This document shows positions 27,097 to 31,680 of a stretch of DNA of 32,257 nucleotides, in pieces. Position numbers and translations under genes: made by a program. Below the pieces are notes generated by a model. It was not told the origin of the DNA, did not search any database, and saw only the letters and a list, made by a program, of their open reading frames with translations. Positions within the stretch are counted from its first letter, which is position 1, and the number at the start of each line of letters is the position of its first letter. The DNA comes from Vulcanimicrobiia bacterium (GTDB lineage: Bacteria > Vulcanimicrobiota > Vulcanimicrobiia > Eremiobacterales > Eremiobacteraceae): positions 1 to 32,257 of the forward strand of contig JANWLL010000144.1 of NCBI GenBank assembly GCA_025450855.1, written 5' to 3'.

Positions 27097-28347
27097 TTAT
27101 GCGTCAACGTGTCGTTTGAAGACGAGCACGGCGTTGTGGCCGCCGAAGCCGAACGAGTTCGAGATCGCCACGTCGACATCGGCCTTGCGCGCGAGGTTCG
27201 GGACGCAATCGAGGTCGCATTGGGGGTCGAACGTGTGATAGTTGATCGTCGGGGGTATGATGCCGCGTTGAAGCGTGAGGACGGTGCAGATGCCTTCGAG
27301 CGCACCGGCAGCCCCGAGCGCATGACCGAACATCGACTTGTTCGCGCTCACCGGGAGCTTTTTCGCGCCCTCGCCGAAGACGGCTTTGATCGCCTGCGTC
27401 TCCGACGCATCGCCGAGTCCGGTCGACGTCGCGTGCGCGTTGATGTAGCCGACGTCTTCGGGCTTGACGCCGGCGTCGCGCAGACCGCGGATCATGGCGA
27501 GCTTGACGCCGCGCGCGTCCGGATCGGGCGCTACCATATGGTAGGCGTCGGATGATTGGCCGTAGCCGATCATCTCCGCGTAGACCTGCGCTCCGCGCTT
27601 CATCGCCGCGGTCCGCTCCTCGAGGACGAGCGCGCCGCCGCCTTCGCAGATGACGAAGCCGTCGCGCTCGGCGTCGAACGGGCGGCTAGCCGTCGCCGGA
27701 TCGTCGTTGCGGGTCGAAAGCGCGCGCATCGCGCAGAAGCCGCCGACCGCGATCGGACTGATAGGCGCTTCCGAGCCGCCGCAGATCATCGCTTCGGCTT
27801 CGCCCGATTGCACGGCTCGGAACGCGTCGCCGATGGCGTTGTTCGACGACGCGCACGCGGACACGGTCGTCATCGTCGGCCCGTGGATATTGAGCGCGAT
27901 CGATATCATGCCCGGGGCCATGTTCCCGATCATCATCGGGATGAAAAACGGCGACAGCCTGTCGGAACCTTGTTCGAGCAGCACTTTATGCTGCGATTCG
28001 AGCGTGATGATGCCGCCGATCCCCGACCCCATGATGCAGCCGATGTCGTCGCGGTTCGCGTCGGTGATCTCGAGCTTCGAATCGGCGAGCGCCTGTTGTG
28101 CCGCGACGAAAGCGAACTGCGTGAAGCGATCCATTTTGCGGGCGTCTTTTTTGTTGATGAACGCCGTCGGCTCGAAACCCTTCACTTCGGCCGCGAATCT
28201 CGTCGGCAGCGGGCTCGCGTCGAAAAGCGTGATCGGACCCACGCCGCTGCGTCCAGCCGCGACATTGGACCAGAACTCTTCGACGGTGATGCCGAGCGGG
28301 GTGACGGCGCCGAGTCCTGTCACGACGACGCGCCTGGGGGCCTGCAT
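27097..28347 (-). CDS. fabF: Beta-ketoacyl-ACP synthase II
   Basis: A 416-residue KAS II of normal length. RRVVVTGLGAVTPLG opens the thiolase fold; C165 in TVSACASSNNAIGDA is the acyl-accepting nucleophile; H305 in NAHATSTGLGD and H342 in NKSMFGHALGAAGALE complete the Cys-His-His triad, with K337 conserved; SNSFGFGGHNAVLVF closes the fold. It condenses malonyl-ACP with acyl-ACP in fatty acid elongation. acpP, which usually precedes fabF, is absent: the 346 nt before the ATG carry no ORF on this strand. It begins the fabF-rnc-(insert)-smc-purH run. accB, in the same pathway, lies in the neighbouring operon. Confidence 0.96.
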   Translation of the reverse strand: MQAPRRVVVTGLGAVTPLGITVEEFWSNVAAGRSGVGPITLFDASPLPTRFAAEVKGFEPTAFINKKDARKMDRFTQFAFVAAQQALADSKLEITDANRDDIGCIMGSGIGGIITLESQHKVLLEQGSDRLSPFFIPMMIGNMAPGMISIALNIHGPTMTTVSACASSNNAIGDAFRAVQSGEAEAMICGGSEAPISPIAVGGFCAMRALSTRNDDPATASRPFDAERDGFVICEGGGALVLEERTAAMKRGAQVYAEMIGYGQSSDAYHMVAPDPDARGVKLAMIRGLRDAGVKPEDVGYINAHATSTGLGDASETQAIKAVFGEGAKKLPVSANKSMFGHALGAAGALEGICTVLTLQRGIIPPTINYHTFDPQCDLDCVPNLARKADVDVAISNSFGFGGHNAVLVFKRHVDA

Positions 28348-28521
28348 GATGCTTCGTAATCAGGTTTGTCGGCGCGCGGTTCCTGCCGCGTTGACGTCGT
28401 CGAACCGCATCGTCATGCGCGATCGATGCGTCGCATCGCGACTCCGCTGTCGACGCGCACCATCGATCGAGCTGATGATGGCGCTCAAGTTTGAAAAACG
28501 GCGGCCGATGATTGGAGAAGG
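28348..28521. other. Intergenic region between fabF and the lysine-rich mini-gene
   Basis: No ORF with coding character is seen. The region presumably holds divergent promoters for fabF (minus) and the mini-gene unit (plus), but no convincing -35/-10 pair was recognised. A palindrome with arms CGATGCG and CGCATCG around a single T lies at 28424-28438 and could be an operator. Confidence 0.4.
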
Positions 28522-28623
28522 GGGAATCCTTCACGGAAAGAAGGTTCCCGCTCGTAGACCTTTCGGAGTCTCCATACTCTCCGGAAGCGCGCGAAACCCG
28601 GCGGACCTCCGCAAACGACCGGG
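28522..28623 (+). ncRNA. Candidate structured 5' leader (three consecutive stem-loops)
   Basis: Three helices can be drawn by eye. P1: GGGAA-(T)-CCTT 28522-28531 with AAGG-TTCCC 28541-28549. P2: CTTTCGGAG 28560-28568 with CTCCGGAAG 28579-28587 (nine pairs, one G-T). P3: CCCGG 28597-28601 with CCGGG 28619-28623, enclosing a short CGG/CCG helix. An A-rich single strand (GAAGAAAAAAAG) follows, then the GGAGGTGA ribosome site of the mini-ORF. I match it to no known riboswitch class. It could be a regulatory leader, part of a small RNA or coincidence. Confidence 0.4.
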
Positions 28624-28677
28624 AAGAAAAAAAGAGGCGTCCAGTAACGCCCCGTGCGCCCCGGAAAACAAGTGGGG

Positions 28678-28744
28678 AGGTGACGTTCACATCATGGCCG
28701 CGAAGAAGAAGACAGCGAAGAAGACCGCAAAGAAAAAGAAGTAA
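28678..28744 (+). CDS. Lysine-rich 16-residue mini-ORF with strong ribosome site
   Basis: The coding part is ATG 28694 to TAA 28742-28744 and encodes MAAKKKTAKKTAKKKK. The feature start includes the ribosome site GGAGGTGA (28678-28685), the best in this window, 8-10 nt before the ATG. Ten of 16 residues are lysine and the rest Ala/Thr/Met, the composition of histone H1-like C-terminal tails. A perfect intrinsic terminator follows after 35 nt, so the ORF is a self-contained transcription unit. Possible roles: nucleic-acid-binding peptide, ribosome-associated basic peptide, or a leader peptide sensing lysine or poly-Lys translation. It may instead be the remnant of a longer H1-like gene. Nothing is known that decides between these. 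Confidence 0.55.
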
Positions 28745-28779
28745 CCGCTAAGGTTATTTCGTCAACGGTGAAAATGAAG

Positions 28780-28808
28780 GGGGCGCTGGTGTGCAGCGCC
28801 CCTATTTT
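28780..28808 (+). terminator. Intrinsic terminator of the mini-gene
   Basis: GGGGCGCTG (28780-28788), loop GTGTG, CAGCGCCCC (28794-28802), then TATTTT. A perfect nine-base-pair stem with a T-rich tail in the plus direction. In the minus direction an A-rich stretch lies on the other side, so it may also slow transcription arriving from the right. Confidence 0.88.
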
Positions 28809-28838
28809 GTCGTCTTTTTCTAGTGTTTTTCGCTATTT

Positions 28839-31307: not shown

Positions 31308-31392
31308 CGGTTGGCGTTTTACGATCGGCGGATACGCTCAAGCGCGTCCCGCATCTCACAGACTCGGGGTTAACACAATCGTGTCCTTCCTT

Positions 31393-31680
31393 ATGAGAAT
31401 CGATCTTCAGCGCTTCGCCCACAAGAAGGGCCTCGGCTCGTCGCGCAACGGCCGGGACTCGAACGCGAAGCGGCTGGGCCTCAAGAAGTTCGGCGGCGAG
31501 ACCGTCGCGGCCGGAAACATCATCCTGCGCCAGCGCGGCACGCGGTTCTTCCCGGGCACCAACGTCGGCATGGGCAAAGACAACACGCTGTTCGCGATGG
31601 TCGGCGGCACGGTCAAGTTCGCGCGCCGCGGCAAGGACAAGCAGGTCGTCGCGATCGAGCCCGCGCCAGTCGAGGCGTGA
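31393..31680 (+). CDS. rpmA: 50S ribosomal protein L27 with N-terminal extension
   Basis: A 95-residue L27. After MRIDLQRFA comes the normal L27 start [27 protein letters not shown], then [28 protein letters not shown] and [20 protein letters not shown]. The extension resembles the LNLQFFA leader of Firmicutes L27, which the cysteine protease Prp removes to free the N-terminus that reaches the peptidyl-transferase centre. Cleavage is predicted between FA and HKKG, with FFA replaced by RFA. ATG 31393 starts the leader; GTG 31381 would add four residues. It is preceded by its own promoter, not by rplU or prp as is usual, and followed by obgE. Confidence 0.95.

Follow-up and report, generated by a model that had tools for sequence, protein, structure and literature searches.

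Within the window analyzed here, a 32,257-nt stretch of a contig from a Vulcanimicrobiia bacterium of the family Eremiobacteraceae, a 16-codon lysine-rich open reading frame (ORF) follows a structured leader of ~170 nt and is closed by its own terminator, which raises the question of what so small a gene is for. The first-pass annotation had described a self-contained unit made up of a leader with three consecutive stem-loops, the best Shine-Dalgarno sequence (SD) of the window, the 16-residue ORF, and a terminator, with fabF on the opposite strand. All of these elements were recovered in place (Table 1), the three stem-loops as P1, P2, and P3, and fabF runs divergently from the unit at 27097-28347 (-). 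The annotation had overlooked the hairpin at the stop codon, the promoter-like element 5' of the leader, and the conservation of the unit. Together, the promoter-like element, leader, SD, ORF, stop-codon hairpin, and terminator form a transcription unit at 28485-28808 (+). It is conserved and, by its evolutionary signature, translated, and on comparative sequence grounds it is confirmed as real and self-standing.

Table 1. Features of the mini-gene unit, in positions of the 32,257-nt window
Feature	Position	Strand	Basis or remark
Promoter-like element TCAAGTTT-N11-GCCGATGA	28485..28511	+	Resembles sigma-28/FliA promoters; putative function
Leader stem P1 (GGGAAUCC...GGUUCCC)	28520..28553	+	Folding and inspection of relatives
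Leader stem P2 and C-rich stretch CUCCAUACUCUCC, candidate anti-Shine-Dalgarno	~28552..28579	+	RNAalifold
Leader stem P3, three-way junction	28580..28665	+	Covariation
P3a, inner hairpin of P3	28597-28623	+	
P3b, inner hairpin of P3 (GGCGU-loop-ACGCC)	28636-28651	+	Loop sequence strongly conserved
Extended Shine-Dalgarno GGAGGTGA	28676..28683	+	Retained in 12/12 orthologues
Mini-gene ORF, ATG...TAA, 16 aa, MAAKKKTAKKTAKKKK	28694..28744	+	K-rich ORF in 12/12 orthologues
Hairpin over stop codon (UAACC...GGUUA)	28742..28756	+	Folding of orthologues
Intrinsic terminator GGGGCGCUG...CAGCGCCCCUAUUUUG	28779..28808	+	Stem 28779-28802, then TATTTTG

Both the SD and the ORF stand out in the window. The extended SD, 10 nt from the ATG, occurs nowhere else on either strand (shuffle mean, 0.51). 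No other ORF of 10-30 aa in the window reaches ≥45% Lys, and none appeared in 40 Markov (dinucleotide-composition) shuffles. With a model of the leader as query, a single copy of the unit was found in each of 12 of the family's 14 genomes; the 103 other genomes searched within the class had none. Named records with the unit are mostly Candidatus Eremiobacterota assemblies, the others being a MAG under the title Proteobacteria and an unidentified bacterium, and a conserved-DNA scan of genome contigs returned the unit's family plus chance matches that lacked a K-rich ORF, many of them in Streptomyces. The locus is syntenic, with smc, rnc, and fabF on the opposite strand and the unit divergent from, and adjoining, fabF in most genomes. 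In two genomes (G003 and G012), other genes are inserted between the two, so that fabF lies ~1.8 kb off and the unit is intact; since the terminator, SD, and ORF also read on the + strand, an RNA belonging to fabF on the other strand was rejected as an explanation.

The orthologous ORFs are K-rich in all 12 genomes, span 12-19 codons with frame-preserving indels, and start with ATG or GTG; their peptides include, besides that of the window, MATKKKAKKPAKKAAKKKK, MAKKKAAKKTAKKGKKK, MAKKKAKKAKKK, and MAKKKAKKKATKKKKH. Where the distance from SD to start was measured, it was 10 nt with one exception. Differences among the orthologues are mostly synonymous, as between G003 and G010, where five codon differences are synonymous and none is nonsynonymous, and the coding constraint read from these comparisons is clear. 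Further downstream, the orthologues that were folded place the stop-codon hairpin on the stop codon or immediately behind it, its arms by inspection differing but remaining complementary in most, and the terminator is in each orthologue examined a strong hairpin with a stretch rich in U (usually CCCCTTCTTTA) behind it. The first-pass annotation had proposed a comparison with relatives, to be read against two adverse outcomes, a lack of stem and ORF conservation or an ORF that is a truncated copy of a longer H1-like gene. In that comparison, the leader stems covary, the ORF is conserved with synonymous changes, and the ORF is short in 12/12 orthologues.

Several measures point to a folded leader. 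The interval 28480-28830 folds with z = -4.6 relative to dinucleotide shuffles, none of 100 being equally stable, and the consensus energies (alifold) of two MAFFT alignments of 11 orthologues (G009 left out) lie 5.3 and 5.8 SD below column-shuffled controls, with 0/200 as low; these controls retain gap patterns and rough conservation, not dinucleotides. Among 12 sequences, the covariation score of P3 is 0.153, compared with 0.037-0.071 when the partner is slid, and no shuffle of 500 scored as high. When the P3 structure is imposed on the same number of sequences, 82% of cells pair versus 28-47% after sliding. By inspection, the arms of P1 differ in several relatives yet stay complementary (GGACG/CGUCC, GGAAGU/ACUUCC), and this region folds poorly in G005 and G006. 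Taken together, the sequence comparisons support well the view that both the leader structure and the gene are real. RNAalifold also pairs the C-rich stretch beside P2 with the SD; because these pairs are mostly invariant or one-sided, it is only by inference that CUCCAUACUCUCC can hide the SD. Like known SD-sequestering leaders, this one is a conserved, folded 5' UTR immediately before the SD, with a predicted anti-SD pairing (clearest at a second locus, described below). It is unlike them in being confined to one family of Ca. Eremiobacterota, in putatively controlling a mini-gene, and in matching no Rfam family: the covariance-model scan suggested earlier, run on the whole window at gathering scores, matched no known class.

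Upstream of the leader, CCGATG(A/G) is found at a similar distance in 10/12 orthologues, with an AAGT/ATGT-like -35 in many, and the -10 element is absent from 2/12. The sigma-28 promoter consensus is TAAAGTTT-n11-GCCGATAA (PMC2859248). A TAAAGTTT-N11-GCCGATAA-like site and a FliA-type sigma factor are both present in the genome, a matter of resemblance only, and a FliA_WhiG-type sigma scores above the NCBI cut-off in 57/61 genomes of the class. A strict sigma-28-like pattern has four sites in 14 genomes, three of them at a window-type unit; a relaxed pattern has 10 sites, four at such a unit, with one site in the window's genome. Because the element is not evident as a broad regulon in these 14 genomes, the putative sigma-28 assignment of the window unit stays a lead. 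A flagellar link was also considered and rejected since, despite the FliA_WhiG-type sigma, no flagellin was found in the 14 family genomes; Vulcanimicrobium alpinus, a member of the phylum, is likewise without flagella (PMC9758169).

The peptide kind is not restricted to this locus. A second K-rich mini-gene lies behind an XdhC-like gene (by reading of the translation) in 11/14 family genomes, its SD held in a conserved hairpin, CACUCCAUU-loop-AUGGAGGUG, and in most genomes the sequence CUCCGCA is common to the loop of that hairpin and to P3a of the window unit (spotted by eye). Mismatches in the SD hairpin (L167, L159-L169) could make it an RNA thermometer. At this second locus, genus g4 alone has a GCCGATRR element, which lends weak independent support. 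One family genome, G007, has neither mini-gene under the patterns used. With the same limitation, K-rich mini-genes were found in 21 of ~99 genomes of a sister family, for example MAAKKKAPKKKPSKKGKKK, mostly with the SD GGGGGTG and with their own terminators. Tandem leader-ORF-terminator arrays also occur there, with three units in G109 and two each in G049 and G020; within the arrays read (L147, L151, L153), the leaders are mutually similar and most units have their own GGAAC-N18/19-GTT motif. Other classes of the phylum contain MAAKKAKAKSKKKK-like ORFs with an SD and a terminator. As a separate observation, locus L172 (G004:C32:3332) encodes a 51-aa K/R-rich protein (MAKKKAATKKRKRRVAAVALLGVRKRRKTVKRRRRR...) behind an identical strong SD and with a terminator after it, possibly a longer member.

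As a control, 14 other genomes reached via chance loci yielded one further case, in a MAG deposited as Proteobacteria bacterium. In this unrelated lineage, deposited under that name, 58/101 genomes searched, the MAG included, contain the same Lys/Ala ORF of 18 codons (MAAKKKAAKKKAAKKKKQ in most), the variation of which is mostly synonymous. At the four loci read (L201, L218, L219, L221), it lies ~80 nt downstream of an apparent B12-type ribonucleotide reductase gene, with which it may be co-transcribed. Overall, the mini-proteins measure 12-26 residues and occur patchily, in one to three copies per genome. Common descent is not provable, because the peptides are too short and low in complexity, and the copies at different loci and in different phyla may be convergent; our claim is of a recurrent kind of gene, not of a proven homologous family. 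Searches of Pfam and NCBIfam with three representative mini-proteins of 20-25 aa gave zero matches, and no description of these mini-genes was found in the literature.

The sister-family copies offer a hint as to control. GGAAC-N17-19-GTT occurs ≤260 nt upstream in 17/22 of these genes, where 0.2 would be expected by shuffling, mostly as GGAAC-N18/19-GTT placed ~64 to 99 nt upstream of the start. Three of the 17 (G096, G097, and the second gene of G088) have the match at a greater distance, and for the last it is the promoter of the upstream neighbor. As the motif was first spotted by eye within the 22-gene set, six genomes fetched later and lying outside that set (G064, G059, G014, G112, G114, G024) are the cleaner test; all six have the motif, at -91 to -96. 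It matches the -35 GGAA(T/C) and -10 GTT of SigH-type stress ECF sigma factors (PMC6338062). Most sister-family copies thus resemble members of SigH-type ECF stress regulons in having the motif in front of them, a likeness from which the window unit departs, having a sigma-28-like element instead. Since similar unannotated mini-genes turn up across the phylum as well as in a single unrelated lineage, they may represent a class of tiny proteins with a positive charge, probably abundant and often under stress control.

We therefore return to what the window unit may do. We put the probability at about 60% that it is a complete, monocistronic gene whose product is an ultra-small polycationic protein, one that would be regulated, strongly translated, and active through its charge. 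Among the readings offered before, a basic mini-protein thus fits best. An alternative sigma factor would start a short transcript just upstream of P1, and the leader would fold and tune translation, probably through making the SD accessible or masking it. The very strong SD would then yield many copies of a polycation of 12-26 residues, and the terminator would close the unit. The product would be comparable to a free-standing histone H1 tail or a protamine-like polycation, which, when cells are stressed or growing slowly, may coat or condense one of their polyanions, whether DNA, RNA, or polyphosphate. DNA binding is a property of Lys-rich H1-like tails, and AlgP, itself H1-like, is associated with granules of polyphosphate (PMC9239181); binding of nucleic acid or polyphosphate is accordingly the function that we infer for the peptide.

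The elaborate covarying leader, the conserved loop of P3b, and the stop-codon hairpin would also suit a dual-function or structural RNA, in which the ORF would serve chiefly to load ribosomes onto, or to stabilize, a folded RNA that is itself the main product. We consider this unlikely. A conserved unpaired targeting region was not recognized, and K-rich peptides of this kind are encoded again at other loci and in further families, behind leaders unlike that of the window unit, which, together with the clear coding constraint, argues that the peptide is the common element. The third option of the first-pass annotation, a dual-function RNA, is for this recurrence not favored.

A strong SD fits an abundant protein, and an accessory mini-protein of the bS22/eL41 or bL37 type, either part of the ribosome or associated with it, would be such a product. 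These proteins are similarly ultra-small, extremely basic, and missed by annotation; Borrelia bS22, 61% Lys/Arg, was revealed by cryo-EM density (PMC10618245). The peptides described here differ from them in being almost lysine only, with arginine nearly absent and no constant motif, and in varying in length (12 to 26) and in copy number (one to three), and they are missing from many relatives. These differences, along with the ECF-type promoter motifs of the sister-family copies, make a ribosomal role improbable. A PDB sequence search with one 20-aa representative, a short and low-complexity query, found no chain at E up to 10.

More doubtful still is attenuation of a downstream gene by a leader peptide that senses lysine or stalls. 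Consecutive Lys codons with a terminator behind them are what such an attenuator would look like, and a lysine- or translation-sensing leader peptide had been among the earlier options. The terminator is, however, kept where the downstream gene changes or is convergent. That neighbor is either convergent, coding for a phosphoesterase or a desaturase, or a PLP enzyme gene on the same strand (names from reading the translations); it is the convergent arrangement that the window's genus and G010 have, and in the other genomes the gene is a different one. No conserved downstream gene was found across the family genomes with the unit; the unit therefore stands alone and should not be an attenuator. 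Tandem arrays in the sister family argue the same way, and no alternative antiterminator was seen in an unsystematic look. We regard attenuation as very improbable.

Least credible is a remnant of a longer H1-like gene or functionless, slippage-prone AAG-repeat DNA: long H1-like AAKK proteins do occur in some sister-family genomes (L010, L015), but 12 genomes all retain the SD, the leader, and the terminator along with an ORF of the same short length class, and substitutions are mostly synonymous. The earlier remark that Lys-rich repeats usually form H1 tails, not complete tiny genes, was a good instinct; in these relatives, complete tiny genes are widespread. Like the bacterial H1-like proteins AlgP and Hc2, the mini-proteins are Lys/Ala-rich, low-complexity, and presumably disordered polycations that vary in length through repeat-like indels. 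In AlgP, however, a 154-aa KPAA repeat region stands behind an N-terminal domain, where the mini-proteins total 12-26 residues, and Hc2 has 165-237 aa, where the mini-gene is a complete 16-codon ORF with its own leader, SD, and terminator. A type I toxin peptide (hydrophobic, membrane-spanning, with an antisense RNA) was discarded, as only Lys, Ala, and Thr follow the start Met in MAAKKKTAKKTAKKKK.

Genes this short fall under the usual cut-offs of gene callers, and their products are poor sources of tryptic peptides. A recurrent class of charged, apparently stress-controlled proteins could for these reasons have escaped notice, and belonging to such a recurrent, unannotated kind makes the window unit more interesting than its sequence alone could show. 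More tentatively, and with the odds somewhat against so broad a statement, several phyla may possess polycationic mini-proteins of 12-26 residues that are induced by stress, transcribed separately, and unannotated. Each would amount to a protamine or H1 tail reduced to its minimum, with the remaining protein absent, and in the window's family a new structured leader RNA, perhaps bound by the peptide itself or by a small ligand, would gate its synthesis. The mini-gene offers a testable minimal case of charge-based control of chromatin, RNA, or polyphosphate in bacteria, and the leader is a candidate new leader-RNA family with a single defined target.

Elsewhere in the window, the ORF at 31381-31680 (+) reads as ribosomal protein bL27 (rpmA). 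Its N-terminal stretch presumably resembles the cleaved N-terminus of bL27 in Firmicutes, where the cleavage needs the protease Prp.
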